Shown: positions 13,514-46,829 of the stretch, one piece after another
How the letters are laid out: each line of letters begins with the position of its first letter
How positions within the stretch are numbered: the stretch's first letter is position 1
Source: Salinivenus sp.
GTDB lineage: Bacteria; Bacteroidota; Rhodothermia; Rhodothermales; Salinibacteraceae
DNA length: 50,627 nt
Assembly: GCA_018609755.1 (NCBI GenBank)
Contig: JAHENZ010000180.1
Span: 1 to 50,627, forward strand
Reading direction: 5' to 3'
Made by a program: the position numbers and the translations under genes
Notes under the pieces: model-generated
Databases searched by the model: none
Seen by the model: the letters and a program-made list of their open reading frames with translations, nothing else
What the model was told of the DNA's origin: nothing

Positions 13514-13761
13514 AAATCACCACTTGACATTCAGGTTTAGAACAGTGATGCTGAAACCTATTGGATACTGATCCTTACACCAACGGGCAGTACAGATTTG
13601 ATCAGCATTGAACTTATGGTGGAGAGGTGGCGAGTCGTCCTTGGCATAGGTGGATGCATTTGCCACTGACTAAGCCATTGGATAACATGGCGTAGTGTCG
13701 TCTCGGTATTCCGGTCTTCTTCAGCGCGCTCATTTACTCTGTTAGTTTTCAGGTGGGACCT

Positions 13762-14499
13762 ATGCTCATCACTCTGCCGCCTCGAGGGAAATCGTTGGTC
13801 CTGGTAGGATTCTTGTTCGCCCTGTTGGGGGGACATCAAGAAGTTGTCGGTCAGGTCGCTCCTGGGGGGCGTAACCCCCAGTCTGAGCAAGACCAAGCTT
13901 CTAGCGAACAGCAGTCCCAGACCGCAGCTCAACAGAGTGAGCCCTTCATTCATGGGGTGTCCATTGGGATTGGGTTGGCGGTTTATCAGGGAGACTTTAG
14001 TCGGAACCCGAATCACAATCTCATAAAGTATCTCGCGGGAAGTGGGGCGCTTTCCGCGCGGGTCGGGGTCGATCACAGGCTGGGACGCTTTGACCAGTAC
14101 GGTGTGGGAGCAGACCTCGTCTATAACCGGCTTTCGGGGGAGACGACGGGAGGATCCGGATTCAAGGCGAACTCGCTTGCACTCGACTTTTATGGCGATT
14201 ATGAGTTGCCGTACATCGCCCCCGGGCTCTTCCGGGTGTTTCTCGGAGGAGGGCCAAACTTCATCATCTCGCCTTCCTACCAAAACTTTCCGGATGACGC
14301 AGAAGAGAGGAATTATGATCCCTTAGGGACCAGGGTTTCTGCATCGTTCAAGGTAGGGGTCACCATTTACGATCAGTTTCGGGTCGGGACCCGTATTGCG
14401 GCCTCCGACCTTCTTGATGGGTACAAGGGGTTTGACCCAAATGGAGTCCCAGACTTCGTATCGTTCCTGAACTTCAGTTATCGGTTCGACCTAAACTGA
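13762..14499 (+). CDS. Outer-membrane beta-barrel protein next to the gld genes
   Basis: About 245 residues from the ATG at 13762 (a GTG lies three codons earlier). A signal peptide (LVLVGFLFALLGG...VVGQ) is followed by a Gln/Ser-rich linker (QSEQDQASSEQQSQTAAQQ). The rest has alternating hydrophobic residues typical of membrane strands (GVSIGIGLAVYQGDF, SALSARVGVDHRLG, GLFRVFLGGGPNF) and ends in an aromatic strand (FLNFSYRFDLN), a usual barrel end. It lies 52 bp before gldK and probably belongs to the same unit. It is shorter than PorP/SprF proteins (about 300 residues), so that name is not assigned. A role in anchoring or assembling the secretion complex is inferred from position only. Confidence 0.7.
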   Translation: MLITLPPRGKSLVLVGFLFALLGGHQEVVGQVAPGGRNPQSEQDQASSEQQSQTAAQQSEPFIHGVSIGIGLAVYQGDFSRNPNHNLIKYLAGSGALSARVGVDHRLGRFDQYGVGADLVYNRLSGETTGGSGFKANSLALDFYGDYELPYIAPGLFRVFLGGGPNFIISPSYQNFPDDAEERNYDPLGTRVSASFKVGVTIYDQFRVGTRIAASDLLDGYKGFDPNGVPDFVSFLNFSYRFDLN

Positions 14500-14551: not shown

Positions 14552-16381
14552 ATGAAAGCTGGACGGTGGACAGCAAGGTTGGCGGTACTCATTCTCATCG
14601 CCTGGGGCGTTTGGGGTGGGGCAGAGGCCCTCTCACAGCGGTTGTATGTGAGTGGAGGTCCTCATCTTGCCTCTCAGTCGGTTGAGAGCTCGATTGCCGG
14701 AACGAATCCAGCCATCCAGGGAGGGGTGCAGCTGGAGTCGTCCGAGTATCTTCGTCTGCGGCTTGGAGGAACGTACCAGAACATCTTCACCGTGGAAGGA
14801 GCGATGCAGCTTCATTTTCTTGGCGACAGTGAGCCGGTGAATCCCTACCTGACTGCCGGGTATGGCTATTACGTTGGTGGGTCTAGAGAGCGAGGGGTGA
14901 TTCCGGTGGGGCTCGGCCTTGAATACGGCCTCGTGGAAAACTTAGCCCTCAGCGTTGAGATGAGTGGCCGATTCGGAGTAAACGAGGTGCGTAACGGTAA
15001 GAGACTCGACCTGAATGTGATGTCGGCCTTCTTCCCCAGCATCGGCTTTACGTATCGGCCCGAGAAAATCGACCGCCGTCCGGCACCCACTCCCGTGGAA
15101 GGAGCGGCGGGGGAGGTATCCGGAAGTGAACAGTTCGGTGGCCGGTCCGCCGAGAATGAGATCGATAGTCCGTTCAACGACCCGGTTTCTGGTTCGCAGA
15201 CGGCGATCCAGAAATTCGACATTCCTTACACCCTTGACTCGCTGAAGAAGATCGATCCTATAATCGTGCAGCGCGGCGATGCACCCTACGATGATCCGGG
15301 GCAGGTTCCCATTACCGGTTCTCCTACGCTCTCGAACGACGGAACGATGGTGCGGCTTCCCGATGGGTCCTTCATCATGGGGCTGACCGACGAAGACCCG
15401 CTTGATATTCAGAATGCCGGCCGGAAGAAGGTGACGGTGAGTTCCTTCTACATTGATCGATTTGAGGTGACGAATCAGGAGTATCGGGACTTCGTGAGTG
15501 ATCTTTCCGGGGAGGAGCGCGAGAGTCGACTTCCCGACTCCACTGCCTGGGATGAATCAGTTAGCCGTGCGAATTGGAAAACGTATTTCTACGGGTCCGA
15601 GCGTAGTGACTTTCCAGTGGTTGCCGTAACCTGGCAGGATGCGAAGGAGTTTTGCGAGTGGGAAGGAAAGCGTCTTCCGACCGAGGCGGAGTGGGAGTAC
15701 GCTGCCCGAGCCGGACGCGTTGGGGGAGTGTATCCATGGGCTGGCTTCTCTCCTCGTGATCCCCAGGGGCGTTATTTAGCAAACTTCAACCCTGGACGTC
15801 AGGGACAAGCAGCCGACGGATATGCGTTTACTTCTCCGGTGGGGACGTACCCGCCGAATAGATGGGGACTTCACGATGTCGCTGGCAACGTTGCAGAGTG
15901 GGTTGAGGATGCGTACACTCCTAGTTATTCGGCCCTCTCCGGCTTAGACCCGGTGTATGAGGACTCTGAAGAGGACCGACGCGTGGTTCGTGGAGGGTCC
16001 TGGGCGTCCAACGCATTCCAGATTGGAGTCGGTGTGCGAGACTTCCAGCAGATGGACCAGCCTTCGTCCCGCATTGGTTTCCGATGTGCGGCGGACGTTA
16101 GCTCCATTGAGGGACAGCAGGAGAGCCTCGGGCCTGAGCAGACCCCGCCTCCCCAGAATCAGCCACAGCCGGGCGCAGGACAGCCTGGAGGGAATGCGCC
16201 TGGTCAGCAGGGAGGACAGGCAGGACAAGGGGGGCAGCAGCCCACGCCTCAGACACCTCCTCCGAACCAGGGAGATGGTCAGACGCAGGGGCCTCCGAAC
16301 GCACCGGAAAACGAAGATGATGGAGGAAACGGTCAAGGAGGCACTGGCCAAGGCGGAAATGATGGTGGGGGGAACCTTTAG
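14552..16381 (+). CDS. gldK: GldK-like protein with N-terminal beta-barrel-like domain (type IX secretion/gliding)
   Basis: 609 residues in three parts. A signal peptide (1-29) and then about 140 residues of alternating strands (about 30-172: GGTYQNIFTVEGAMQLHFLG, PVGLGLEYGLVEN, AFFPSIGFTYRPEK) that look like a small outer-membrane barrel. Residues about 265-515 are a formylglycine-generating-enzyme/SUMF1-type domain as in GldK/GldJ, with GSFIMG, FEVTNQEY, PVVAVTWQDAKEFCEW, RLPTEAEWEYAARAG, DVAGNVAEWVED and RVVRGGSW. Residues about 520-609 are a Pro/Gln/Gly-rich tail. Usual GldK is a lipoprotein; here no lipobox Cys follows the signal peptide, so the barrel could be the membrane anchor. GldK with GldN forms the ring of the type IX secretion machine at the outer membrane. 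gldL, gldM and gldN follow. Confidence 0.85.
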   Translation: MKAGRWTARLAVLILIAWGVWGGAEALSQRLYVSGGPHLASQSVESSIAGTNPAIQGGVQLESSEYLRLRLGGTYQNIFTVEGAMQLHFLGDSEPVNPYLTAGYGYYVGGSRERGVIPVGLGLEYGLVENLALSVEMSGRFGVNEVRNGKRLDLNVMSAFFPSIGFTYRPEKIDRRPAPTPVEGAAGEVSGSEQFGGRSAENEIDSPFNDPVSGSQTAIQKFDIPYTLDSLKKIDPIIVQRGDAPYDDPGQVPITGSPTLSNDGTMVRLPDGSFIMGLTDEDPLDIQNAGRKKVTVSSFYIDRFEVTNQEYRDFVSDLSGEERESRLPDSTAWDESVSRANWKTYFYGSERSDFPVVAVTWQDAKEFCEWEGKRLPTEAEWEYAARAGRVGGVYPWAGFSPRDPQGRYLANFNPGRQGQAADGYAFTSPVGTYPPNRWGLHDVAGNVAEWVEDAYTPSYSALSGLDPVYEDSEEDRRVVRGGSWASNAFQIGVGVRDFQQMDQPSSRIGFRCAADVSSIEGQQESLGPEQTPPPQNQPQPGAGQPGGNAPGQQGGQAGQGGQQPTPQTPPPNQGDGQTQGPPNAPENEDDGGNGQGGTGQGGNDGGGNL

Positions 16382-16457: not shown

Positions 16458-17126
16458 ATGGCCACACCGAAGCAGAAAGCTGTACTAGAAAGAATAAAAA
16501 AGGTGCTGGGGTTCTTTATTGGGATCTTTGGGGCCCTGGCGATTCTGGGAGTCTTCTTCAAGATCCTCAAGTATCCCAACTGGGAGTTGTTCATGCAACT
16601 CGGCTTCATCGGCGAGGCAGCCACGTTTGTCATCATGGGAGCCTTGGAGTTGGGGCAGGCGTTCCTCATTACCGTCCCGGAAGATGGGGAGGGGGCTGGA
16701 GGTGCGTCATCGGCATCGGCGGCTGAGGGGAGCACCGATGTAGGGAAGCCTGTTCGCGCCTCTGCTCGGGAGATGATCCAGAAGAAGGTGAATGATGACC
16801 TGAACGTGATGATGGGGGCGTTAGGAAAGGAGATAAAGCAATTTGGAGGCGAGATCCACGAAATGGTGGGAGAAATGAAACAGGCCCGTGTTGCCGTGCA
16901 GGACATGAGAACGAAACTAAATGAGGTTGCAACGGGAGACCTCGCCGAAGACGCCGAGCGCTTGGGGAAAGGGATGAACTCTCTGGGGGCAGAGATGGAG
17001 AATGCCGGTACTGCCGTTGAGGAAATGCGGAACGACTTGGATGAGATGCTCCGACGGTTCCGCCAATTCAACGATCCCCAGGTCACACCCAATGGAGTTT
17101 CTGATACAAATCAAACCGTTAGCTAG
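16458..17126 (+). CDS. gldL: GldL, inner-membrane motor protein of type IX secretion/gliding
   Basis: 222 residues. Two membrane helices lie at about 17-34 and 44-63, followed by a long cytoplasmic tail that looks coiled-coil (MIQKKVNDDLNVMMGALGKE..., AVEEMRNDLDEMLRRF). In the membrane part Lys35 (FFKIL), Lys38, Glu53 (IGEAATF) and Glu64 (GALELG) sit where the Flavobacterium GldL has the charged residues needed for proton-driven rotation. GldL and GldM form the motor that powers type IX secretion and gliding. The gene ends two bases before gldM, so the two are co-translated or nearly so. Confidence 0.88.
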   Translation: MATPKQKAVLERIKKVLGFFIGIFGALAILGVFFKILKYPNWELFMQLGFIGEAATFVIMGALELGQAFLITVPEDGEGAGGASSASAAEGSTDVGKPVRASAREMIQKKVNDDLNVMMGALGKEIKQFGGEIHEMVGEMKQARVAVQDMRTKLNEVATGDLAEDAERLGKGMNSLGAEMENAGTAVEEMRNDLDEMLRRFRQFNDPQVTPNGVSDTNQTVS

Positions 17127-17128
17127 TT

Positions 17129-18181
17129 ATGGCACAAGGTGGAGGCGACATTAAACAGCTCCGGTACAGGGTGATGTTGGCGCTGTACCTTCCGATCCTA
17201 CTGTACTCGTTCAGCACGTTTGACCTTGAAGAGCAGAGCGTTGCTGCGGAAAAAGTGGAGCCCATCCTCGTTGGGGGGCAGGAGACTGTCGTTCTGGGAC
17301 AGGACTATTCGGCTAATGCCTACCTTAAGGCCTCTCAACTTGCGAAGGGAGGAGAGATCACCCTCAGTACCAGTGATCAGAAGGTGACCGTTGAAGGCAA
17401 TGAAAACATACAGATTGCGACGGCTGAACTGCTTGCAGAGGGAGAAAATGAGAAGGAGGTAGATTACTCCGTGACGATGGAATACAGTCAGTTGAAGGGG
17501 ACGGCCCGGCAAGAGTTGACCGGCTCCTTCACCGTTCGCCGTCCCGAACTGGTCGCCACTAGTGTTGCCACGAAGTCCCTGTACCGGCAAACGCAAAATC
17601 AAATCCGAATCGACGTGCCGGGACTTGAGGGCAGGCCACTCGAGTTGGAGTCTTCTTCGGGATCTCGTGTTGAGGGTCGGCAGTTGACGCTTAGCCCGTC
17701 TTCGAACAACGTAACGGTGCGGGCGTATCTGCCTACGGATGGAGAGAGCGTGTACTTGGGGGAGAAGGAATTTGCTGTTATTGATCCTCCCCGTCCCGAG
17801 CTCAGGGTCCTTGATCGACAAGGAGAACAGCTTGCGAACGGTGATAATATCTCTCGTGCGCGTCCTGAGCTTCAGTTCCAGGTTGAGCCTGATGCTGAAT
17901 TTGCCAAGAGCTATCCCCGGGATGCTAACTACCGGGTTCGGCGTGCCAAGGTATCGATCCGGAAGGGGCTGCAGGCAAGTGAGGAAATTGGCACATTCGA
18001 ACTTGGACAGAACTCTACGCTAAGCCGAGAACTCATCCGTGCCTTCGGAGAAGTTGGGGCGCAAGCGAAGGACCGGCTCATTATTCAGTTGCAGGACGTT
18101 GTCCGGGTCAACCACGCGGGGCAAGCCATTCCTGTGAATCTTAACGAATCTAGTCTCTCCTACAGCTTTATTCTCTCCTAA
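17129..18181 (+). CDS. gldM: GldM-like motor/shaft protein, short form
   Basis: 350 residues against about 515 in well-studied GldM. One N-terminal membrane helix (about 12-32, VMLALYLPILLYSFSTF) is followed at once by beta-rich periplasmic domains. YRQTQNQIRIDVPGLEGRPL and VRAYLPTDGESVYLGEKEFAVIDPPRPEL resemble the third GldM domain (pattern YRGVxNPVxISVPG...). The helical bundle (D1) that normally comes right after the membrane helix seems to be absent. GldM passes motion from the GldL motor to the GldKN ring, so a shorter shaft may mean a different envelope spacing or a different partner. Assigned from position after gldL and these partial similarities. Confidence 0.78.
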   Translation: MAQGGGDIKQLRYRVMLALYLPILLYSFSTFDLEEQSVAAEKVEPILVGGQETVVLGQDYSANAYLKASQLAKGGEITLSTSDQKVTVEGNENIQIATAELLAEGENEKEVDYSVTMEYSQLKGTARQELTGSFTVRRPELVATSVATKSLYRQTQNQIRIDVPGLEGRPLELESSSGSRVEGRQLTLSPSSNNVTVRAYLPTDGESVYLGEKEFAVIDPPRPELRVLDRQGEQLANGDNISRARPELQFQVEPDAEFAKSYPRDANYRVRRAKVSIRKGLQASEEIGTFELGQNSTLSRELIRAFGEVGAQAKDRLIIQLQDVVRVNHAGQAIPVNLNESSLSYSFILS

Positions 18182-18233: not shown

Positions 18234-18881
18234 ATGACTACATCAAATCGTCCTGAGGCCTTTTGGGCATTAGTGTTTGCTTTTGTCCTTTTTGCAATTC
18301 CTGTCCAGCAGGCTGACGCCCAGCGTTGGCTTCAAACCTCGCAGTTGTACGTTGACCTGACGGAGATGCAGCGCAATAGCCCGCCACGTGCGCTCATGGA
18401 CACGCTGACCCAGGTTCTTACACGTGAGGACAGCATCATGGTGCGTCGTACGCCGGATGGGGAAAGGATGCCCATCTCCGATCTGAAAGATGAGCTCATC
18501 GATGGGCCCGCGATTGGCCTTGAAAGTGCAAACGGAATGTTCGTAAACTATCGATTCGAGATTCAGAATCGCGGATTCGAAGAGAGCATTGAAAGCCTTC
18601 AGTATATCTATCGCCCTCAAGGAGGGAACGAGGAGGATATCCAGATGCTCTATATTGACGCTTCTGACCAGTGGATAAAGGACCTTCTCCGTAACAAGGG
18701 AACGACGCTTGAGACGAACCAGGCGGCCCTGAAAACCTTCAAGGATCAGCTTGCATTTGCCCGCATGGCGAAAGATGGGCAGGTTGTGCAGATTGCCGGA
18801 GAGACGGTTCGAGAAGGGTTTGAGATGGAGAAGCGTCAGCTTGTTCAGAAAATTCAGCGGTTAACATACGAATCGATGTAG
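18234..18881 (+). CDS. gldN: GldN-like periplasmic protein of type IX secretion
   Basis: 215 residues with a signal peptide (about 1-29, ending ADA-Q). The mature part opens RWLQTSQLYVDLTEMQRNSPPRALMDTLTQVLTRED and contains a VRRTPDGERMPISDLKDEL segment, roughly in the manner of GldN/PorN, which bind GldK and GldM at the outer membrane. It is shorter than most GldN proteins (about 300 residues) and I identify it mainly by its place after gldM and its export signal. The 52-bp gap after gldM contains a small inverted repeat. No gene of this block follows it; a tRNA comes next. Confidence 0.65.
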   Translation: MTTSNRPEAFWALVFAFVLFAIPVQQADAQRWLQTSQLYVDLTEMQRNSPPRALMDTLTQVLTREDSIMVRRTPDGERMPISDLKDELIDGPAIGLESANGMFVNYRFEIQNRGFEESIESLQYIYRPQGGNEEDIQMLYIDASDQWIKDLLRNKGTTLETNQAALKTFKDQLAFARMAKDGQVVQIAGETVREGFEMEKRQLVQKIQRLTYESM

Positions 18882-20221: not shown

Positions 20222-20368
20222 GGACTGAAGATGTTCTTTTCACAGCATCTCCGTTCAGAGGTTACAATACTGCGACGCTTCTCTCGTTTTTAGGCGCTGT
20301 GATTGAACGGCGTTGAAGGCTGTTCATTTTTTGAGCGTCTTAATCTCCCGCGAGCGACTTGTTGTCTC

Positions 20369-21331
20369 ATGGGCATCACCGCATCGAACCTCACGAAGGT
20401 CTACGGCACGCAAAAGGCCGTAGATCACATCAGTTTTGAGATGAACACGGGTGAGGTGCTCGGCTTTCTCGGGCCGAACGGGGCTGGCAAAAGCACTACG
20501 ATGCGCATTCTGACGTGTTATCTAAACCCCACGTCCGGAACGGCCACGCTCGACGGCTACGACATCCACGAGCATCCCCAAGAGGTACGGCGTCGCATCG
20601 GGTACCTTCCGGAGGACACGCCACTATATTCCGATATGCCGGTGGTTGAGTACCTGTGGTTTTCGGCTGACCTTCAGTCGGTGCCAGAGGGCAAAGTCGA
20701 TCGGCGGATCCAGAAGATGATGGAGGTTTGTGGGCTTGGGCCTGAGCGTCACAAGCGGATAGGGGAACTGTCGAAGGGATTCCAACAACGGGTGGGGCTC
20801 GCGCAGGCGCTGCTTCACGATCCACCCGTGCTCATCCTCGACGAACCAACGACGGGCCTCGATCCCAACCAGATTGCTGAGATTCGGGAACTCATCAAAG
20901 AAATTGGGCAGGAGAAAACCGTGATGCTCAGCTCCCACATTCTGAAGGAGGTGGAGATGACATGTGATCGGATCCTGATCATCGACCAGGGGCACATCGT
21001 GGCCGATGGGCCAACTGAACAGCTCCGGCAGCAATTTTTGGGAGGCACACGGCTCCGCGTGCAGGTCGACGCGCCCGACGAGGCCGACGTGATAGAGGCA
21101 TTCGAAGGGCTGTCCGGAATTGTCTCCGCACAGCGGATGAAAGGGAGGTATGAGCTTACTGCCGAGGGAGACACCAACCCCGCCGCGGACGTTTTTCACC
21201 TCTGTGCTGATCGTGGCTGGGTGTTGTCCGAGTTGACGCCCCTCGAGTCAAGTTTAGAAGATGTCTTCCGAGAGCTCACTGAGGATCCGAAAACCCCGGC
21301 AGAAGTGGAAGCGGCTCCCACCTCAGCCTGA
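20369..21331 (+). CDS. gldA: ABC transporter ATP-binding protein, GldA type
   Basis: 320 residues from the ATG at 20369 (MGITASNLTKVYG), the usual start for the family. Walker A GPNGAGKST, signature LSKGFQQRVGLAQAL, Walker B PVLILDEPTTGLDP and the H-loop LSSHIL are all present. A C-terminal extension of about 90 residues follows the ATPase domain. Together with the next two genes it matches the GldA-GldF-GldG arrangement, an ABC-2 exporter needed for gliding in Flavobacterium johnsoniae but absent from some gliders. In other bacteria very similar sets serve unknown export roles, so the gliding link rests on the nearby gldKLMN genes. Confidence 0.88.
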   Translation: MGITASNLTKVYGTQKAVDHISFEMNTGEVLGFLGPNGAGKSTTMRILTCYLNPTSGTATLDGYDIHEHPQEVRRRIGYLPEDTPLYSDMPVVEYLWFSADLQSVPEGKVDRRIQKMMEVCGLGPERHKRIGELSKGFQQRVGLAQALLHDPPVLILDEPTTGLDPNQIAEIRELIKEIGQEKTVMLSSHILKEVEMTCDRILIIDQGHIVADGPTEQLRQQFLGGTRLRVQVDAPDEADVIEAFEGLSGIVSAQRMKGRYELTAEGDTNPAADVFHLCADRGWVLSELTPLESSLEDVFRELTEDPKTPAEVEAAPTSA

Positions 21332-21405
21332 GGTGTTTTCCTCCTGTCTACAATTCGTGCACCGATTCACGACGATCCGTCTGATCAGAGACCGTCTTTA
21401 CGATC

Positions 21406-22131
21406 ATGTACGTCGTTTGGACGATCTGCAAGCGCGAAGTCAACGCGTTCTTCGACTCTCTGACCGCGTACGTGTTGCTGGTGATCTTCCTCGGGCTAAG
21501 TGGCACGTTCACGTGGCTCTTCGGGCAGGGGGACATCTTCTTCGTTGGACAGGCCTCGCTGAGCACATTTTTCAACGTGGCGTTCTGGACACTCTTTTTC
21601 TTCATCCCGGCCGTGACGATGGGGATGGTGGCAGAAGAGCGACGCAGCGGTACCCTGGAGTTACTGGCTACGAAGCCGCTGGATGATCTCCAGATTGTGG
21701 CGGGCAAGTGGCTGGCGGCCTGGGGATTAGTGGCCATCGCTCTCGTGTTCACGCTCCCGTATTACGTGACTGTTGCCCGGCTCGGACCGATTGATCACGG
21801 GGCCACTATTAGCGGCTACGTTGGACTTCTGCTCGTGAGCGCCGTCTACGCAAGCATCGGGATTTTCGCGTCAAGCCTCACGAGCAACCAGATTGTTGCC
21901 TTCCTCCTCAGCTTGTTGATTGCCGTCTTTCTCCACCTGCTGTTCGGACAAATGGCCAGCATTTTGCCGGAACGCGCGGCTGCTGTCGCCGAATTTTTGG
22001 ACTTGCGGAGTCACTTTCAAACGATGGCTCGGGGGGTAATTGACGCGGCGTCGGTGCTGTACGCGGGGACCCTCACCGTCGTTGCGGGGCTTGCAGCAAC
22101 GGTTTCCCTCAAGAGCCGGAGCTGGCACTGA
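21406..22131 (+). CDS. gldF: ABC-2 type permease, GldF type
   Basis: 241 residues with about six membrane segments. The conserved cytoplasmic stretch MGMVAEERRSGTLELLATKPLDDLQIVAGKW is typical of ABC-2 permeases (EExxGTLE motif). It lies 74 bp after the GldA-type ATPase and shortly before the GldG-type gene, so the three form an operon. It should form the membrane channel of the transporter. The substrate is unknown. Confidence 0.88.
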   Translation: MYVVWTICKREVNAFFDSLTAYVLLVIFLGLSGTFTWLFGQGDIFFVGQASLSTFFNVAFWTLFFFIPAVTMGMVAEERRSGTLELLATKPLDDLQIVAGKWLAAWGLVAIALVFTLPYYVTVARLGPIDHGATISGYVGLLLVSAVYASIGIFASSLTSNQIVAFLLSLLIAVFLHLLFGQMASILPERAAAVAEFLDLRSHFQTMARGVIDAASVLYAGTLTVVAGLAATVSLKSRSWH

Positions 22132-22190
22132 TGTTTTCTTTCTACCTTTGAGTGTCCACCCTCAATGCAAAATTAGAACCTTTTCGGCTC

Positions 22191-23780
22191 ATGTCGAACG
22201 CATTCGCAGGCTTTCTTGCGAACCGGCGCGAAGCGATCCTGCAGGTATTGCTCATTGCGGGCAGCCTCATTGCCCTCACCTATACGGCTCATCAGTTCGT
22301 CTGGCGAGCCGATCTCACGGAGAACAACCGGTACACGCTTGCCAGCGCGAGCCAGGACATCGCGCAGGACCTGGAGGATCCGGTGACGGTCACGGCCTAC
22401 TTCACGGCCAATCTGCCGTCTCGGTTCGGACGGACGAAGGAAGAGTTTCGGGCGCTGCTACAGGAGTTTCGGGCGGCGGCGGACGGAAACGTGGAGTTTC
22501 AGTTTGTAAACCCGAACGAAAGCGACGAGAAGGCTCGTCAGGCACGGGAGGCCGGCATCCGTCCCGTGACGATCGACGTGCGACAGCGGAACCAGATGAC
22601 GCAGAAACGGGCCTATCTCGGTGCGGTGTTTCAGTACCAGGATCAGCGAGAAGTGCTTTCGTTTCTTGAGCCCGGTTCGGCGCTGGAGTACACGATTGCC
22701 AGCTCAATGCAGAAGCTCACGCAAGAAGAACAAGCGGTGCTGGGTGTGTTGCAGGGGCACGGGGCGCCGGCGCTTAACGAGATGACGCAGCTCCGCGATG
22801 CTCTCAAGGGCCGGTACAATCTTCAAACGGTGTCGGGGATTGACTCAACAGGCGTACCGGCGAATGTAGACGTATTGCTCATCCCTCGGCCGACACGTCC
22901 GCTTTCTACACAGGCGGCACTTGCCGTAGACCAGTACGTGATGCGCGGGGGACGAGTGATTTTCGCGCTGAACCGCGCGGAGGCGAATATGCGGTTTGGT
23001 CGGTCTCGACCCCTCGACACTGGGCTTGACTCTCTCCTGCAGACGTACGGTCTACCCGTTCGGGCCGATCTCGTGCGCGATCGGAACGCAACGGCCGTCC
23101 GCATGCAGCAGCAGCGTGGCGGCTTCAACGTAGTAAACCGCATTCGATACCCGTACATTCCACAGGTCGCAAACTTTTCGAGTCACCCGATTAGTGCGGG
23201 GCTCGATCAAGCCATCTTCCGTTTTGTCTCGTCGGTGGACACAACGCAGGTAGATACGACTGCCAGCCTGACAGTGCTCGCCCGTTCGTCGGAGCAGTCG
23301 GCCCGCGCTCCGTTGCCGGCGAGCATTCGACCGCAACAGGAATGGACGGTGTCGGACTTCTCGGAGGCCAATATCCCAATTGCTGGGCTCCTGGAGGGCA
23401 CCTTCACGTCGGCCTTTGCGAATTCCGATACCCTGTCGGTTGAGCGCACGAAGAGTCCCGAAACGAAGCTGATCGTCATTGGCGATGGAGACTTCATCGT
23501 CAACGGCTCGGGTCAGCGCAAACGGCGGCTCCCCGAAGGCAACATCAACCTCCTGGTCAACAGTGTCGACTACCTTGCGAACGATACGGAGCTCATCTCT
23601 CTCCGAACCCAGCGGGTCACGAGCCGGCCGTTGATGCAGATTGCGCCCACCACACAGACGATTTTGAAGTACGTGAACGTGCTGGTTCCGATCGTACTGG
23701 TGATCGGATACGGGCTCGTTCGGTATCGGCGCAACCAGGCGCAACGCCAGCGCTGGAAGGAGGAGGGAGTGACTGCTTAA
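22191..23780 (+). CDS. gldG: GldG-type ABC transporter auxiliary protein
   Basis: 529 residues from the ATG at 22191 (a GTG at 22152 is an alternative). An N-terminal membrane helix (AILQVLLIAGSLIALTYTA) is followed by a large extracytoplasmic domain of the ABC_transp_aux/GldG type, which opens with FVWRADLTENNRYTLASASQDIAQDLEDPVTVTAYF. It has LLIPRPTRPLSTQAALAVDQYVMRGGRVIFAL and VIGDGDFIVNG...NLLVNSVDYLA. A second helix near the C-terminus (YVNVLVPIVLVIGYGLV) anchors it again. It works with the GldA/GldF transporter at the inner membrane. Confidence 0.88.
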   Translation: MSNAFAGFLANRREAILQVLLIAGSLIALTYTAHQFVWRADLTENNRYTLASASQDIAQDLEDPVTVTAYFTANLPSRFGRTKEEFRALLQEFRAAADGNVEFQFVNPNESDEKARQAREAGIRPVTIDVRQRNQMTQKRAYLGAVFQYQDQREVLSFLEPGSALEYTIASSMQKLTQEEQAVLGVLQGHGAPALNEMTQLRDALKGRYNLQTVSGIDSTGVPANVDVLLIPRPTRPLSTQAALAVDQYVMRGGRVIFALNRAEANMRFGRSRPLDTGLDSLLQTYGLPVRADLVRDRNATAVRMQQQRGGFNVVNRIRYPYIPQVANFSSHPISAGLDQAIFRFVSSVDTTQVDTTASLTVLARSSEQSARAPLPASIRPQQEWTVSDFSEANIPIAGLLEGTFTSAFANSDTLSVERTKSPETKLIVIGDGDFIVNGSGQRKRRLPEGNINLLVNSVDYLANDTELISLRTQRVTSRPLMQIAPTTQTILKYVNVLVPIVLVIGYGLVRYRRNQAQRQRWKEEGVTA

Positions 23781-35919: not shown

Positions 35920-36019
35920 GGTTTTGATTGTGGTGGAAGCGTTTGTGGGAGAAGTCAGGCCGGGTGGAGACACGGGAAGTGCATTCGCAAGCAATTTTTT
36001 ACATTACGGAGGGCCAATC

Positions 36020-39000
36020 ATGAGACTTGAACGGCTACTATTGTTTTTTCGAAGCAGAGAGGTGCCCCCAGAAGACAGGCACTTGGTGAGCGCGGTGGGG
36101 AAGGCGATCCTCGCGCTTTTTGTATGTTTTATCGGGGTCGCGACGCTTTCTCTTTCCGCACACGCGCAGGAAGTTGACGTGTCCGGTCAGGTTGTGGACG
36201 CAGAGAATGAAGAGCCGCTTCCCGGCGTGAACGTCGTGGTTCAGGGAACTACCATCGGTACCACGACAAATGCGCAGGGAGACTATTCCCTCACCGCGCC
36301 GAGTGGCGACGCAACGCTGGTCTTCTCGTTTGTGGGGTATGAGACACAGCAGGTCCCTCTTGAGGGCCGGTCCACGGTGAATGTCGAACTGGCGGTGTCC
36401 TCGGAGATGCTCGACGAGGTGGTTGTGGTCGGGTACGGGACGCAGAACCAGGCGGAGATTACCGGATCTGTGTCGTCGGTTTCCTCGGCAGATCTGGAGG
36501 ACGACGTGAGCTCGACGATTGACCAGGCCCTTCAGGGCCGAACCGCTGGCGCAATGGTCGTTCGGAACAGTGGCCGCCCTGGGGGAGACGTATCCATTCG
36601 GATTCGCGGGCTCAGCACCCTCAACACCGGCTCGGATGAGCCGCTCTACATCGTCGACGGGGTGCCGCTCAACGGGGACTCTGATAATGCGATTACGAAC
36701 CCTCTGGCCACCATCAATCCCCAGGACATTGAGTCCATCGACATTCTGAAAGATGCGTCGGCGGCCGCGATCTACGGCTCCCGTGCCTCGAACGGAGTCG
36801 TCCTCATTACGACCAAGCGTGGTGAGGCCGGCCAGCAGCGTGTTGATTACAGCGCATCCGTCGGGGTCGACCAGTTGGCGAAGCATTTGGATGTCATGAA
36901 TCTTCGAGAATACGCCCAGTTTGTGACCCGGCGGGCCGAGATTGTGGGGTATAACAATCAGCCGCAGTTGAACAACCCGGATCTTCTCGGAGAGGGAAGT
37001 GATTGGCAGGAGGCACTTTTTCGGACTGCGGTGACGACGGACCACTCGCTCGCCGTGAGCGGGGGAACGGAGAGTACACAGTATCGTCTCTCCGGAGGGT
37101 ATACCTACCAGCAGGGCGTCGCCATCGAGTCCAACTTCGAGCGGTATTCGCTCCGGCTCAACCTGGACAACCAAACCACCGAGTGGTTGGAGGTGGGAAC
37201 GAGTCTCAACCTCAGCCGGACGCATGAAGACATCGGCGTGAGCCAAGATGACCTCGTCCTTACGGCCATTCGCCAGCGCCCGAATGTGCCGGTGCGGACC
37301 CCGGGTGGAGGATTTGGCGGTCCGGATCAGTCCAACTTCCAGCTCAACAACCCGGTGGGGCTCGCTGAGCTCAACACCAACGAGGTGATGCGGACGCAAG
37401 GGGTTGGAGAGGTTTTCGCCAACGTCGACCTGTTGGACAATCTCAAACTCAAAAACGAGATCAATGGGCAGGTCTCCTTTAACAACAACTACACCTTTAA
37501 TCCCACCTGGCAGTTTGGTGCGCGGAGCAACGATCAGGCGGAAAGCACGCGCTCGTCCGGTCACAGCACGTACTGGCAGATTCGGAACTACCTGAACTAC
37601 AACACGAACTTCGAAGGATTGAAGGTCGACGCCATGGGGGGGCACGAGGTTCAGCTTACCACCTATGATGGGTTGGATGCGGCTCGAACGGGGTTCCCAA
37701 GCAACAACGTGCAGGAGCTTGGGGCAGGAGACGCAGGAACGGCCACAAATGGAAGTTACGCCGGCTCGAACTCCATGGAGTCTGTCTTCGGACGGGTAAA
37801 TCTGTCCTATGACAACCGTTATCTGCTCACCGGAAACCTCCGAGGAGATGCCTCCTCGAACTTCTCGCCCGAAAACCGTTGGGGGGTCTTCCCGTCGCTT
37901 TCGGCGGCGTGGCGCGTGACGAATGAGCCGTTTCTCGAGGGATCGTCGATCCTCGACGTGGTGGATCAATTCAAGATTCGCGGCGGATGGGGATACGTGG
38001 GCAACCAAGACATTGGAGGATACCGCTACGGAGACACGTACACCATCATCCCGACGGACTTCGGAAATGGGGTGCGTGCCTCAAACCTCGGGAATCCCGG
38101 CATTCAGTGGGAGTCTACCGAGTCCATCAACCTGGGGGTTGACGTTTCGGTCTTCGATCAGCGCGTGAGCCTAGCCGTCGACGCCTATCAGAAGAGGGTG
38201 CAGGAGCTTCTGCTGGAGGTGCCGCTTCCCTTGTATTCTGGGACCTCCGGGAATGGCTCGATCAACAACCCGCTTGATAATATCGGGGCGATGGAGAACC
38301 GCGGAATTGAGTTTAGCCTCAATACCGTGAACGTCGATAGCGACTTCCGGTGGACGACCGATGTCGTCTTCTCGCTCAATCGCAACGAGGTGACGGAGAT
38401 GAACGACGATGATGACTTTCTGGATCGTTCCATCGGATTCTTCGACACCGCGAGCCGGACCGTCGTAGGGGAGCCGGCCGCCCAGTTCTACGGATACGTG
38501 GCGGACGGCATCTACACCAGTGCCGAGAAGCTTCGGAACGCGGCAAATAACCCTGAGCAGAGCCCCTACGCCCTTCCGGAGGGGAACTCCATTAATGAGA
38601 CGCAGGGCACCTGGCTCGGAGACATCCGGTTCCGGGACCTCAATGACGATGGCGTCATCAACCAGGAGGACCGGACCTTTATCGGGAATCCGACCCCTGA
38701 CTTCACCTACGGGATTACGAACCGGTTCAACTACATGGGAGTTGACTTTTCCTTCTTCCTGAACGGAAGCTACGGGAACGACATCTTCAACCAGGTGCGT
38801 CGCCAGACCGAGGACCCGTCGGCCGATCAGGGCATGCTGGCGGAGGTGTTCAACTATGCCCGCATTGGGCCGATTGACGACAGTCAGCCGGCCACTCTCG
38901 ACAACCTGGAGGTAAAGAACCCAGGGACGGACGTTCCTCGCATTACCGATACTGATCCGAACAACAACCAGCGCGTGTCGTCGCGCTTCGTGGAGGACGG

Positions 39001-39274
39001 ATCGTATCTGCGCATTCAGAACGTGACCCTTGGCTACACGCTCCCTTCGGATCTGACGCAGCGATTCAACCTGCGGCGGTTCCGGGTGTACGGGACGGTC
39101 TCGAACGTATACACGTTCACCGGCTACTCGGGCTACGACCCGGAAGTTGGCGCGGTGATGTCCCAGGCCGCCCGTGACAGTGGACAGGCGAGCGATCCGC
39201 TGCTGCGTGGCATTGACGCGGGGCGCTACCCGACCCCGCGAACGTTCACCTTCGGGATCAACGTCGGGCTGTAA
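36020..39274 (+). CDS. SusC/RagA-family TonB-dependent outer-membrane transporter, first copy
   Basis: 1084 residues from the ATG at 36020, chosen because a GGAGGG ribosome binding site lies just before it. A long N-terminus of about 25 residues precedes the signal peptide core (AILALFVCFIGVATLSLSAHAQ). Then a carboxypeptidase-regulatory-like domain (VSGQVVDAENEEPLPGVNVVVQGT...SFVGYETQ), the TonB box and plug start (LDEVVVVGYGTQ), the plug (GRTAGAMVVRNSGRPGG, SIDILKDASAAAIYGSRASNGVVLITTK) and a 22-strand barrel ending PRTFTFGINVGL. It imports oligosaccharides released at the surface, with SusD as its lid. It heads the operon with susD and a glycan-binding lipoprotein. Confidence 0.96.
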   Translation: MRLERLLLFFRSREVPPEDRHLVSAVGKAILALFVCFIGVATLSLSAHAQEVDVSGQVVDAENEEPLPGVNVVVQGTTIGTTTNAQGDYSLTAPSGDATLVFSFVGYETQQVPLEGRSTVNVELAVSSEMLDEVVVVGYGTQNQAEITGSVSSVSSADLEDDVSSTIDQALQGRTAGAMVVRNSGRPGGDVSIRIRGLSTLNTGSDEPLYIVDGVPLNGDSDNAITNPLATINPQDIESIDILKDASAAAIYGSRASNGVVLITTKRGEAGQQRVDYSASVGVDQLAKHLDVMNLREYAQFVTRRAEIVGYNNQPQLNNPDLLGEGSDWQEALFRTAVTTDHSLAVSGGTESTQYRLSGGYTYQQGVAIESNFERYSLRLNLDNQTTEWLEVGTSLNLSRTHEDIGVSQDDLVLTAIRQRPNVPVRTPGGGFGGPDQSNFQLNNPVGLAELNTNEVMRTQGVGEVFANVDLLDNLKLKNEINGQVSFNNNYTFNPTWQFGARSNDQAESTRSSGHSTYWQIRNYLNYNTNFEGLKVDAMGGHEVQLTTYDGLDAARTGFPSNNVQELGAGDAGTATNGSYAGSNSMESVFGRVNLSYDNRYLLTGNLRGDASSNFSPENRWGVFPSLSAAWRVTNEPFLEGSSILDVVDQFKIRGGWGYVGNQDIGGYRYGDTYTIIPTDFGNGVRASNLGNPGIQWESTESINLGVDVSVFDQRVSLAVDAYQKRVQELLLEVPLPLYSGTSGNGSINNPLDNIGAMENRGIEFSLNTVNVDSDFRWTTDVVFSLNRNEVTEMNDDDDFLDRSIGFFDTASRTVVGEPAAQFYGYVADGIYTSAEKLRNAANNPEQSPYALPEGNSINETQGTWLGDIRFRDLNDDGVINQEDRTFIGNPTPDFTYGITNRFNYMGVDFSFFLNGSYGNDIFNQVRRQTEDPSADQGMLAEVFNYARIGPIDDSQPATLDNLEVKNPGTDVPRITDTDPNNNQRVSSRFVEDGSYLRIQNVTLGYTLPSDLTQRFNLRRFRVYGTVSNVYTFTGYSGYDPEVGAVMSQAARDSGQASDPLLRGIDAGRYPTPRTFTFGINVGL

Positions 39275-41164: not shown

Positions 41165-42520
41165 ATGCAATTTTTTGATACCAAACGAGCAATGGGTGTA
41201 GCCACGAGCCTTCTGGTGGTGGCGGTGGCCCTTGCGCTGGTCTCGTGTGATGGGCTTTCCGGGGAATCCGGAAATCCCACTCAGGATCTCAACGAATCTC
41301 TCTCAATTTCGGGCGTCCAGTACCAGAATGCGGACTCTGTAGATGCGAACGGGAATCCCATCGTCCCTGACACATTGAGTCCCGGAGACCGGATTGCGAT
41401 TCAAGGAAGCAACATGAATTCGGTCGCCAACGTGTACTTTCTCGGCTATGAGGCCGACTTCAATTCGGCCCTTGCCTCCGAGAATTATTTGATTGCCACG
41501 ATTCCGGGCGATCTTCCGTTCGGAGAACTGACGCCGGCGGAGGTGGAAGGGGATAGTCTTCCCGAGATCCAGGTCACGAATAACGCCAGCGAGGCCCGGT
41601 ACGATGAGGCCCCGGTGCGGCCCCCGGCCCCGGAGCTTGCGAGTATGAGCAACGAGTATGCTGATCCCGGAGAACAGGTCACGGTGTTCGGGAACTTCCT
41701 GTATCTCGCACAGTCCGTTACGCTTCCTGATGGGACGACCATCCCGAGCGAAGAGATTGACGCGACGCCCGACGGAGGAGAGGCAACCTTCACCATTCCC
41801 AGCAGTGCTGCTCCGCAGGCAGGACCTATCACGTTCACCACGGCCAGTGGGACGGCTAACTCTGGACTGGCGTTCAGGTACCGCGAATCGCGAGGCATGC
41901 TCCTCAATTTCGACGACCAATCAAACTGGGCGGGCTGGGGCGCCACGGTGGCGACGAGTGCGGACTCAGACTTTGGAAGTGGGGCTGAGGGCTCGTTTGC
42001 CATTCTGGGCGGACAGGGAGAAATTGCGGTCGGCGACAACTCGTGGTATAATGGCAGCCAGGCCATCAATCTCAGCAATCAGGAATGGGTTGCTCCGGAG
42101 AATCTTAACGAGTCTCCCGAAAACTTTGCGGTGAAATTCGAGCTCAATATTCAGGAGGAGTGGAATACCGGCAACATCATCATTCACATCCACGAGACGA
42201 CGGAAAACTATCAGTCGGGCTATGGCTACCGCGTACAGCCCTGGCGCCAGTCAGACGGTAGTGTTCAGGCCGTGAGTTGGCAGGGATGGCGTACGTTCAC
42301 GGTCCCGCTCAGCGAGTTTACGGATGGATACGGCGATCCCGAGGGATCGGCGGTGCCCGACCTCACGACACTCCTGGGTGAGGATGGAAGTGCGGGTCCT
42401 GGTGGCCCGGACAACAACCCCTCATCGTTCCGTCTCAATAACATTGGCGGCAACGCTCCGATTCCGGCAAGCCAGGCCTTTGCCGTGGACAACATTCGGG
42501 TTGTGAGGATTTCAGAGTAG
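41165..42520 (+). CDS. Surface glycan-binding lipoprotein with IPT/TIG-like domains
   Basis: 451 residues with lipoprotein signal (LVVAVALALVSC, Cys near residue 29). Two Ig-like IPT/TIG-type domains (SLSISGVQYQNADSVDANG...DRIAIQGSNMNSVANVYFLG and APELASMSNEYADPGEQVTVFGNFL) precede a C-terminal beta-sandwich of about 210 residues (RGMLLNFDDQSNWAGWG...VKFELNIQEEWNTGNIIIHIHE...AFAVDNIRVVRISE). This layout matches SGBP-B proteins of xyloglucan loci, which hold the polysaccharide at the surface. It is the third gene of the SusCD operon. Confidence 0.87.
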   Translation: MQFFDTKRAMGVATSLLVVAVALALVSCDGLSGESGNPTQDLNESLSISGVQYQNADSVDANGNPIVPDTLSPGDRIAIQGSNMNSVANVYFLGYEADFNSALASENYLIATIPGDLPFGELTPAEVEGDSLPEIQVTNNASEARYDEAPVRPPAPELASMSNEYADPGEQVTVFGNFLYLAQSVTLPDGTTIPSEEIDATPDGGEATFTIPSSAAPQAGPITFTTASGTANSGLAFRYRESRGMLLNFDDQSNWAGWGATVATSADSDFGSGAEGSFAILGGQGEIAVGDNSWYNGSQAINLSNQEWVAPENLNESPENFAVKFELNIQEEWNTGNIIIHIHETTENYQSGYGYRVQPWRQSDGSVQAVSWQGWRTFTVPLSEFTDGYGDPEGSAVPDLTTLLGEDGSAGPGGPDNNPSSFRLNNIGGNAPIPASQAFAVDNIRVVRISE

Positions 42521-42596
42521 AGACCGGAGGTTCGGAGCCCCGGGGGCCCGAGGTTTGATCTCTTCGTGCCGGGGTTGGTTCTACCTGTGATTGTCG

Positions 42597-42636
42597 ACAC
42601 GTCGCCCCTTCCCTTTCCGGGGGAGGGGCGTCGTGT
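42597..42636 (+). terminator. Strong hairpin closing the SusCD-SGBP operon
   Basis: A stem of 16 pairs with one T-T mismatch: ACACG-T-CGCCCCTTCCC (42597-42613) pairs with GGGGAGGGGCG-T-CGTGT (42620-42636), loop of 6 nt. No T run follows, so termination is likely but not certain. A type B MITE begins 13 bases later. Confidence 0.55.
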
Positions 42637-42648
42637 ATTGGCCCATTC

Positions 42649-42820
42649 TAGTGGGCTTGCACAACTGAAACGCGAGAACTCGCAGATCTCGTGACGTTGT
42701 TTCCGTCTGTCTCTCCTGCGCGGAATCTGCTCAGGATCGACCGCTGCCGGCAAACGCTGACGATTGTGGCGCCGGGTGACCGACGCTCGACATCCCCGGA
42801 GTAGTTGTGCAAGGTTACTA
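42649..42820 (+). mobile_element. Type B MITE-like element, copy 3
   Basis: 172 bp including TA at both ends (42649-42650, 42819-42820), same orientation as the 8306 copy. Ends TAGTGGGCTTGCACAAC and GTTGTGCAAGGTTACTA. It ends 49 bp before the GH44 start, much like copy 2, which ends 45 bp before its gene. Confidence 0.8.
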
Positions 42821-42869
42821 AATTGTCAATACCCACTCTCGTTTGTGTCTCACCGTCCGAAGTCAACTC

Positions 42870-44555
42870 ATGCGCCTGCGGTACGTGTTTTCCATCGTTC
42901 TTGCAACTGTCGCGCTTGTCTTAGCGCTCGGCGCCTGTGATAGTGGGTCCGGTCCCTCACTGCCGGAGGATTCGGAAGAATCCCCTCCTGGGAACGACGG
43001 GCCGGACGTAGAGGGAACCGCCACGGTCTCCATCCACACGGGCGAGGACCGTTCCGACATCAGTCCCTACGTTTACGGGTCGAACCAGGCCCAGTCCAGT
43101 GGGAACGACTTTACGGTGCGCCGGCTGGGCGGCAATCGTCTGACGGGGTACAACTGGGAGACCAACTACTCGAACGCCGGCAGCGACTACCAGCATTCCA
43201 GTGATGACTTTCTGCTCCGAAACGAGGGCATCCCGGAATCCGAGTGGCGTGAGCCCGCGAAGGTCGTGACCCACTTTCACGAGGAGGCGATGGACATGGG
43301 GGCCGAGACGGTAGTAACGCTCCAGATGGCTGGCTGGGTCTCGGCCGACAATGACGGCACCGTCACGGAAGAGGAAACGGTCCCGTCTCCGCGCTGGGAC
43401 TCAGTCGAGTACCGGAAGGGCGCCTCGTACACACAGTCGCCGGATACGGAGGACGGCACCGTATACATGGACGAACTCGTGCATCTCTTGACGGAGCGGT
43501 ACGGTGGAGCGTCCACAGAAGAGGGCGTGCGCTGGTACTCGCTCGACAACGAGCCCGCCCTCTGGTCGTCCACGCATCCTCGCATTCATCCGGAGCAGAC
43601 GGGGGCACAGGAGATCGTCAACCGCACGACTGAGTTGGCCTCGGCGGTCAAGGCGGTGGATCCGGAAAGTCAGATCCTCGGTCCGGTCCTCTACGGGTTT
43701 GGAGCCTATCTGGACTTTGAGGGACCCTCGGACTGGAGTTCTGTAAGCGGGGGCCACGACTGGTTCGTGAGTTACTACCTCGACCAGATGCAGCAGGCCG
43801 AGCAGACCCACGGTACGCGTCTGCTGGACGTGTTGGACGTGCACTGGTATCCCGAAGCACGAGGCGACAACCGCATTGTTTTTAATGACGGCAACACGGA
43901 GGCCGACATTGAGGCGCGGCTGCAGGCGCCCCGAACGCTGTGGGACTCGACGTACACCGAGAATAGCTGGATTGCAGATTGTTGTAGCGAGGATCTGCCC
44001 ATCCTGCCCCGCCTCCAGCAGGCGATTGAGGAGCATTATCCCGGGACGAAACTCGCCATCACCGAGTACGAGTACGGGGCGATGAACACCATCTCGGGCG
44101 GGCTCGCGCAGGCGGACGCGCTCGGCGCCTTCGGCAAGTATGGGGTACACCTCGCCACGCTCTGGGGAATTGAGGACGGAGACGAGTACGTGGCGTCGGC
44201 CTTCGACCTGTATCGGAATTACGACGGAGAGGGAGGAACGTACGGAAATACCGACGTGCGGGCCACCACGGACGATCGACAGAATGTTTCGGTGTATGCC
44301 TCCATCGAAGACGAGGACCCCTCGACACTGCACGTGATTCTGATCAACAAGAATCGGGACGGTCCCTTCCAAATTCAGTTCGATTTGCAGGGCAGTGCCT
44401 CCTACTCCACCGGCGACGCGTGGCAGTTCGACGCAGAAGGTGCATCGATTGACGAAGTCGAATCGTTTGGTGACGACGTAGATCTCTCCGGAGACTCCTT
44501 CTCCTACGTTGCTCCTCAGGAATCGGCGACTCACCTCATCCTCCGGACTGAGTAG
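42870..44555 (+). CDS. GH44 family glycoside hydrolase lipoprotein
   Basis: 561 residues from the ATG at 42870 (upstream GTG unlikely). Lipoprotein signal ends VLALGAC. A Ser/Pro/Glu-rich linker leads into a (beta/alpha)8-type catalytic domain with GH44 features: RRLGGNRLTGYNWE, YSLDNEPALWSSTHPRIHP with acid/base Glu228, VLDVHWYPEA and ITEYEYGAMN with likely nucleophile Glu399. A small beta domain ends the protein. GH44 enzymes cut xyloglucan, beta-glucan or related chains internally. The lipid anchor puts it on the cell surface near SusCD. A type B MITE sits directly upstream. Confidence 0.9.
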   Translation: MRLRYVFSIVLATVALVLALGACDSGSGPSLPEDSEESPPGNDGPDVEGTATVSIHTGEDRSDISPYVYGSNQAQSSGNDFTVRRLGGNRLTGYNWETNYSNAGSDYQHSSDDFLLRNEGIPESEWREPAKVVTHFHEEAMDMGAETVVTLQMAGWVSADNDGTVTEEETVPSPRWDSVEYRKGASYTQSPDTEDGTVYMDELVHLLTERYGGASTEEGVRWYSLDNEPALWSSTHPRIHPEQTGAQEIVNRTTELASAVKAVDPESQILGPVLYGFGAYLDFEGPSDWSSVSGGHDWFVSYYLDQMQQAEQTHGTRLLDVLDVHWYPEARGDNRIVFNDGNTEADIEARLQAPRTLWDSTYTENSWIADCCSEDLPILPRLQQAIEEHYPGTKLAITEYEYGAMNTISGGLAQADALGAFGKYGVHLATLWGIEDGDEYVASAFDLYRNYDGEGGTYGNTDVRATTDDRQNVSVYASIEDEDPSTLHVILINKNRDGPFQIQFDLQGSASYSTGDAWQFDAEGASIDEVESFGDDVDLSGDSFSYVAPQESATHLILRTE

Positions 44556-44616
44556 TTCTACGAGCAACGCGCGTTGAACCATCCTCCCGAAAAATCCGTC
44601 GGAATGTATGACTGGG

Positions 44617-44628
44617 GGTCATATTATG
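44617..44628 (+). promoter_or_regulatory. GGTCATAWWATG motif, copy 2 (GH10)
   Basis: GGTCATATTATG, 96 bp before the GH10 ATG, identical to the site before SusC-1. Its right part forms TCAT-N3-ATGA. Confidence 0.35.
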
Positions 44629-44723
44629 ATTTTATCGGTCCTATAGAGCACGAACATTGTTCGCGTAGCGTCCGAGTTGGGGGGGGCGAATTGCTCACGT
44701 CTTGCAAGATCCACGATTCACTC

Positions 44724-46783: not shown

Positions 46784-46829
46784 GGTGGGGGTCACTCGCG
46801 TTCATGATCACCGTAACAGCAAAGCTGAC

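Follow-up and report, generated by a model that had tools for sequence, protein, structure and literature searches.

The closest described counterparts of the gene discussed here are GldK and PorK (TIGR03525; PDB 9mzu, 9ots, 9p6h and 9myj), the ring subunits of the type 9 secretion system (T9SS). The gene occupies positions 14552-16381 of a 50,627-nucleotide stretch of Salinivenus sp. DNA (assembly GCA_018609755.1, contig JAHENZ010000180.1; the whole of this stretch is called the window below), and its product shares with them an FGE domain, a position at the head of a gldKLM(N) cluster and, by homology, a role in the ring. It differs from them in that it has no lipobox, a predicted barrel at its N-terminus, no cysteine in the RGCF motif, an FGE domain without the canonical insertions, and a score that falls below the family cut-off. 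Weighing all the data, it is probable that the gene encodes a GldK-type ring subunit of the T9SS that is anchored by its own N-terminal 8-stranded barrel and not by a lipid.

A second point of comparison is PorG (DUF6089, PF19573), an 8-stranded barrel that is disulfide-bonded to GldK C343/PorK C356, a residue of the RGCF motif on the membrane face (PMC12635249, Liu 2025). The same source reports that GldK C343 is additionally disulfide-linked to SprF, that PorG is essential for secretion and that GldK is in molar excess; its authors knew in 2025 of no analogy in other mechanical systems to such a fixing of PorG and SprF on GldK by disulfides. The window protein likewise appears to join an 8-stranded outer-membrane barrel physically to GldK, but here the barrel is predicted within the GldK polypeptide, has neither a DUF6089 match nor a tail cysteine, and a PorG-like gene is found upstream. 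The order of a barrel followed by a periplasmic domain is that of OmpA and OprF, and the profile aligner hhalign gives 94.6% to a control set of 4 OmpA barrels, while OprF is among the PDB matches; in this case, however, the periplasmic domain is a GldK-type FGE domain and not the peptidoglycan-binding one of OmpA. Lastly, GldJ, the FGE lipoprotein of the gliding tracks, also carries no cysteine in the RGCF column (0/6), yet it is a lipoprotein without a barrel and forms its own clade (support 100/99). Among the literature matches listed, no title or abstract beginning describes a barrel-GldK fusion, with most subscription papers outside this scope, and a term search of PMC12635249 found no occurrence of Rhodotherm, Salinibacter or "fused".

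Architecture of the fused gene

The protein can be divided as follows:

14552-16381, + strand: GldK-type protein with a predicted built-in N-terminal barrel, 609 aa; single open frame with an ATG start
14552-14632, + strand: signal peptide of the Sec type, residues 1-27, without lipobox; cleavage site judged by eye
14633-15061, + strand: predicted 8-stranded outer-membrane beta-barrel domain, residues 28-170; from PF13505, PDB profile matches and a low-confidence model of the homologue L028
15062-15343, + strand: linker, residues 171-264, a candidate ring-contact arm; from alignment
15344-16090, + strand: FGE/SUMF-type GldK domain, residues 265-513; PF03781
16091-16378, + strand: low-complexity P/Q/G-rich C-terminal tail, residues 517-609; from sequence composition

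A previous inspection of the window, referred to as the sequence-only reading, had described a signal peptide without lipobox, about 140 residues of strands, an FGE domain at about 265-515 and a Pro/Gln/Gly-rich tail, and each of these elements was found again. PF03781 (FGE-sulfatase) matches residues 265-513 with E 2.1e-61; the approximately 143 residues from 28 to 170 are beta-rich and close in a putative beta-signal, PSIGFTYRP; and the tail is loosely constrained, its ratio of nonsynonymous to synonymous substitution (dN/dS) being 0.16-0.23. As for the linker, its second half resembles the segment that precedes the FGE domain in unfused lipoprotein paralogues, and three loci (L025-L027) matched a query of residues 1-264 over approximately residues 196-264 only. 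The absence of a lipobox is firm: Cys368 and Cys512 are the sole cysteines of the 609 residues, so a lipobox is impossible in this protein, and none is found among the 19 further residues that the frame gains when it is read back to the preceding stop. The error of start or frame that the earlier reading had named as a possible refutation, one that would conceal a lipobox, is thus rejected.

Could the architecture be the product of chance, of gene decay or of misassembly? The window genome is in 328 contigs (5.0 Mb, 96% complete). The same fusion recurs in 14 loci of the families f1 and f2, one of which, in the 99% complete genome G009, sits on a contig of 4.3 Mb, and it is therefore no assembly artefact. 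The dN/dS of residues 28-176 is 0.04 against the G009 locus (L067) and 0.18 against L028, with dS near saturation; these ratios indicate purifying selection on the beta domain. All three explanations were accordingly discarded.

The N-terminal domain

Outer-membrane barrel families head the Pfam list for the N-terminal domains, and PF13505 (OMP_b-brl) is matched, weakly, by 13 of the 14 homologous domains, at best with E 1.7e-4. When the 14-member profile was compared with PDB sequences, three chains were retrieved at E<=1, and all are transmembrane barrels: the designed 6x9z (8.8e-4), OprF (0.0058) and the designed TMB2.3 (0.035), which we take to be 8-stranded. In addition, the domain ends in P..G..[YF] in 14/14 members, followed at +5 by a hydrophobic residue in 11/14 (the window protein, L028 and L067 have Pro at this site), an ending that we take to have the shape of the beta-signal read by the barrel assembly machinery (BAM). 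On these grounds the domain is very probably an 8-stranded outer-membrane barrel, and the barrel-like anchor proposed by the sequence-only reading gains support from the Pfam recurrence, the PDB profile and the beta-signal and, weakly, from the L028 model.

The structure prediction that had been suggested as a check gave a mixed answer. AlphaFold (AF2) was run on the window protein and on L028, and the use of these two sequences alone accounts for the poor models. The L028 model has the 8 strands (predicted template-modelling score 0.40), and nearly all of its 50 listed Foldseek matches are transmembrane barrels; the confidence was low, with predicted local distance difference test values (pLDDT) of 43-47, and avidins score similarly to barrels.

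Several results weigh against a membrane barrel. The Pfam matches are weak, the window domain itself reaching PF13505 with E 0.0073 and 16.9 bits, to be compared with a cut-off of 28.7. The mean pLDDT is 43.1 for the window and 46.8 for L028; in the Foldseek search with the window model, outer-membrane barrels take ranks 1-4 and are then mixed with actin-capping proteins, and neither model gave an E below 0.001. In VIA-align, a designed transmembrane barrel has a Z score of 10.1, OprF one of 9.6 and soluble avidin one of 9.3, values so close that the fold alone does not settle membrane insertion. A count of amphipathic segments was dropped as proof of a barrel, since it gave soluble GldM a score like that of PorG and was often equalled by shuffled columns.

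These last two results are what would favour another reading, namely that residues 28-170 fold into a barrel or sandwich that stays soluble in the periplasm and serves as a ring adaptor, anchoring nothing: the avidins come close in Z, and the amphipathicity count failed to separate the domain from soluble GldM. Yet the sequence matches in the PDB are all transmembrane barrels, the Pfam list is led by outer-membrane families, the beta-signal is present, and the VIA-align identity is 12-24% to OmpA, OprF, NspA and designed transmembrane barrels (TMB) against 2-7% to avidins. Furthermore, a ring subunit with neither lipid nor barrel would be unanchored. We regard a soluble domain as very unlikely, and the membrane barrel is retained in what follows.

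Putative ring genes, relatives and trees

The neighbouring genes are the following:

13753-14499, + strand: OMPup, PorG-like outer-membrane barrel protein of 248 aa, with which the conserved cluster opens; OMP_b-brl_2 with E 9.5e-5, below cut-off
16458-17126, + strand: gldL-type motor gene; GldL_N with E 0.00071 (below cut-off) and hhalign
17129-18181, + strand: gldM-type motor gene, 350 aa; TIGR03517 with E 3.1e-16 (below cut-off), PorM/GldM structures and hhalign
18234-18881, + strand: candidate gldN; from position and size only
20303-23780: gldA-gldF-gldG; TIGR03522 6.8e-113, TIGR03518 1.2e-64 and TIGR03521 1.2e-87, all below cut-off

The order gldKLMN is thus found with K, L and M recognised by homology and N by position. 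The gldL product aligns with canonical GldL by hhalign at 96.7% over 52 columns, and that of gldM at 98.9% with canonical GldM, with PorM/GldM structures matched at best with E 1.1e-8. The latter protein is short, 350 aa compared with 510-559 aa in ten canonical operons, and past its N-terminus the alignment covers canonical columns 228-503 of 517, so that it lacks a portion of the periplasmic region. The genome also encodes a nearly full-length SprA and 51 C-terminal domain (CTD) tails. The gldA-gldF-gldG genes start 1.4 kb past the cluster, so a gliding-type ATP-binding cassette transporter is nearby; no GldJ was recognised in this genome, where three of the five other FGE matches were placed in trees and no GldJ model was run.

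As to the identity of the ring subunit, the PDB sequence matches of the protein include PorK structures, and TIGR03525 is matched with E 3.1e-67. Some points speak against a GldK: the TIGR03525 score of 227.7 bits is below the cut-off of 350; the gldN candidate, identified by position alone, has no meaningful Pfam, NCBIfam or PDB profile match, and hhalign to canonical GldN gives 2.5%; and in the trees the class Rhodothermia GldK is sister to GldK plus GldJ and not nested in GldK. Is the protein then an FGE-domain enzyme or a surface protein unrelated to the ring? The sub-threshold score and the sister position would fit this view, but gldL and gldM follow the gene in 12/12 loci whose contigs continue, the fused copies of the families f17 and f20 are likewise in a gldL/gldM cluster (4/4), and the gene lies apart in the tree from three other FGE proteins of the window genome. 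An unrelated FGE protein is accordingly highly improbable, and the GldK-type assignment is kept.

How widespread is the fusion? With residues 1-264 as query, matches were obtained in 18 of 60 relatives. L011/L130 and L020 (truncated at contig ends), L023 (an unrelated barrel) and L024 (match not followed) were left out, and L028 and L068 are one gene, counted once. In all 14 loci compared, from f1 and f2, the barrel is fused to GldK, and the search for the same domain order that the earlier reading had advised was in this way positive. OMPup is directly upstream of gldK in 14/14 loci, and a gldN candidate is present in 11/11 with continuing contigs, those of L070 and L072 ending inside gldK and that of L078 inside gldM; L071 has a second, unfused gldK between the fused one and gldL. 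A search with the GldK part in 392 Bacteroidota genomes (E<=1e-38) matched 26, of which 8 have frames of >=600 residues, all in the class Rhodothermia; the 18 matched genomes outside the class have frames of 341-477 residues. One genome outside the class, G198, matched more weakly than this threshold and has a GldK frame of 685 residues with a lipoprotein-like Cys start; with its GldK core beginning at residue 53, it owes its length to internal sequence and not to an N-terminal barrel.

At least two sequence types of N-terminal domain are joined to GldK in a gldKLM cluster, possibly three. Besides the window type of f1/f2 there is type E, carried by GldK of G005 and G006, of the genus of the window (L124 6708-8300, - strand; L125 7020-8588, - strand), which is PorG-like by its SDYTGDF motif and matches OMP_b-brl at 7.7e-5 in one of the two. 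The possible third, of approximately 340 residues, is fused to GldK in the f17/f20 loci (L083, L085, L086 and L126); it is barrel-like by eye, and in these four proteins no Pfam barrel match and a weak hhalign result were obtained.

Copy number varies as well, and the extra unfused copies of some relatives complicate the picture. One GldK, fused, was found in each of the window genome (G000), G009 and G015, whereas G014 has two in tandem, G016 three, and G018 and G022 at least two; lipoprotein copies without barrel occur in G016, G018 and G022. In f17/f20, the lipoprotein GldK of G082 and G115 is on a separate contig, and in G080 and G061 the fused copy alone was found. Two unfused paralogues (L080 6937-8091 and L071 8588-9760), whose N-terminus is hydrophobic, lack both lipobox and barrel and are possibly ring subunits without an outer-membrane anchor.

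The FGE-domain trees (48 and 52 rows) hold the Rhodothermia GldK as one clade (92/93 and 100/99), beside GldK and GldJ, which group with each other (100/94 and 100/99). Within the class clade, the lipoprotein and fused sisters of f17/f20/f21 split from f1/f2, where 5 unfused copies, 3 with a lipobox and 2 without, are nested among the fused ones, several inner branches being weakly supported. This nesting suggests that in f1/f2 the fusion is ancestral and that the lipid anchor was regained.

Possible coupling of the ring to the outer membrane

The sequence-only reading did not go as far as two features of this group: the extra lipoprotein copies of some relatives and the absence of the linking cysteine. 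In the alignments, this cysteine is present in 17/17 GldK examined outside the class, in 0/29 inside it and in 0/6 GldJ. The 29 comprise 14 fused proteins of the window type, 2 of type E, 4 fused and 4 lipoprotein forms from f17/f20 and f17/f20/f21, respectively, and 5 unfused f1 copies; in the window protein the column is occupied by Arg407. The two cysteines of the FGE part are kept in 14/14 window-type proteins and presumably are a structural pair of the fold. On the partner side, no cysteine is found in the last 60 residues of OMPup (0/14), compared with 17/19 DUF6089 proteins that have one in the last 14. Neither side of the known bridge was therefore found. The lipoprotein GldKs of the class also have no such cysteine (0/4 in f17/f20/f21, 0/3 for the lipobox copies in f1), and its absence therefore characterises the class as a whole and does not result from the fusion.

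Which barrel was fused? By hhalign, the domain reaches 92.0-97.4% with four PorG sets, a range that includes the value for OmpA, and 0.5% with PorP and 0.1% with GldM; none of the 14 fused barrels matches DUF6089 at E<=1. A hidden Markov model (HMM) of the fused barrel, searched in 12 other Bacteroidota genomes at E<=5, gave 25 matches: 11 DUF6089/PorG, 3 OmpA, 6 RtcB and 5 others. Eleven of these were inspected and named by eye (6 RtcB, 3 OmpA, 1 FadL-like and 1 other outer-membrane-like), and the RtcB matches, which are chance, count against the specificity of the relation. PF19573 was silent in all 60 relatives (0/60), but so were the controls, so that this result is uninformative alone. 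Because hhalign and the HMM point to both families, the fused barrel is, at the level of profiles, OmpA/PorG-type and not provably PorG. OMPup carries the PorG-like motifs YxGD and DxLDG and aligns with three PorG sets at 94.8, 96.4 and 97.6%, with 4 flavobacterial PorGs at 6.1%, with OmpA at 4.8% and with PorP at 3.2%; none of its 14 members matches DUF6089. Its identification as PorP/SprF, which the gene position in some canonical operons would match, is not favoured given the last value.

With these data, one can ask what the barrel does. One possibility is that the gene fusion takes the place of the disulfide between GldK and PorG, so that a peptide bond, and no cysteine bridge, would pass the force of the moving ring on to an outer-membrane barrel. 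PorG, the essential 8-stranded barrel linked to GldK C343/PorK C356 (PMC12635249), sets the precedent, and the distribution of cysteines in GldK and OMPup agrees with it, as do the PorG alignments of the fused barrel; in G005/G006, moreover, GldK bears the different N-terminal domain with the PorG-like YTGD, and no OMPup was seen in the 12-13 kb read. Against this, the fused barrel is equally OmpA-like and has no DUF6089 match, a separate PorG-like gene still adjoins gldK, the cysteine is also absent from unfused lipoproteins of the class, so that its loss is not tied to the fusion, and the type E domain is no nearer to PorG when profiles are compared (PorG: 81.9 and 51.1% for the largest two sets, 27.4 and 1.3% for two four-member sets; OmpA: 27.3%). 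A replacement of the disulfide is for these reasons a tentative proposal, one that we would sooner doubt than adopt.

The alternative is that the barrel has simply replaced the lipid as an anchor, and that OMPup, as the PorG-like partner, couples by non-covalent contact. The constant position of OMPup next to gldK speaks for it, as does the fact that three of four PorG sets align with it better than OmpA or PorP does, and the barrel-less lipoprotein copies of G016, G018 and G022 show that anchors are exchangeable in evolution. Conversely, the OMPup HMM matches nothing significantly in 12 genomes that are known to encode DUF6089 proteins, the flavobacterial PorGs align poorly, and no OMPup adjoins gldK in G005/G006, elsewhere in both genomes not having been searched. 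A plain anchor is a serious candidate that falls somewhat short of an even chance. More doubtful is the broadest proposal, that throughout the lineage gene fusion ties the T9SS ring to an outer-membrane barrel, a task done in other Bacteroidota by a disulfide between two proteins, and that the ring is an integral outer-membrane palisade.

Under the reading of a barrel-anchored GldK, assembly would proceed in the manner of OmpA, barrel first and periplasmic domain after. The Sec signal peptide would be cut, and BAM would fold the barrel into the outer membrane via the beta-signal of its last strand, in place of the N-terminal lipid. The linker and the FGE domain would then hang in the periplasm and, judging from the homology to PorK and the order of the genes, assemble next to a GldN-type partner into a polymeric ring, which GldL and GldM would turn by proton-motive force, as is known for the canonical system.

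Is there room for so many barrels? The P. gingivalis ring is a 33-mer with inner and outer dimensions of 380 and 540 Å (PMC12635249). By arithmetic, these leave each subunit an arc of 36-51 Å. An 8-stranded barrel is roughly 25-30 Å wide, and one per subunit is therefore sterically possible. A difficulty for this reading is that a rotating ring would have to drag approximately 33 barrels through the membrane; where a genome has additional unfused copies, these could dilute the subunits that bear a barrel. If every subunit does bear a barrel, about 33 embedded barrels or such a dilution must be accommodated in models of a rotating ring. A barrel on the ring subunit and no linking cysteines, combined in one lineage, amount to a natural experiment, and the lineage suggests that what matters is the physical joining of barrel and track, and not disulfide chemistry or its reversibility.

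Two further observations can be added. Six other genomes (G001, G003, G010, G028, G029 and G037) each have a full-length SprA and 15-83 CTD tails, and searches in them found no GldM at E<=0.01 and no GldK at E<=1e-45, so that they apparently possess a T9SS translocon without the known KLM motor; overall, GldM was not found in 18 of the 25 genomes searched, and SprA was tested in these 6 of the 18. In the window itself, the stretch 41165-45854 holds genes for a xyloglucan-binding SGBP_B, a GH44 and a GH10 and is flanked by TonB-dependent receptor plug-domain genes at 35924-39274 and 46785-49988, and it looks like a locus for the use of plant glycans.

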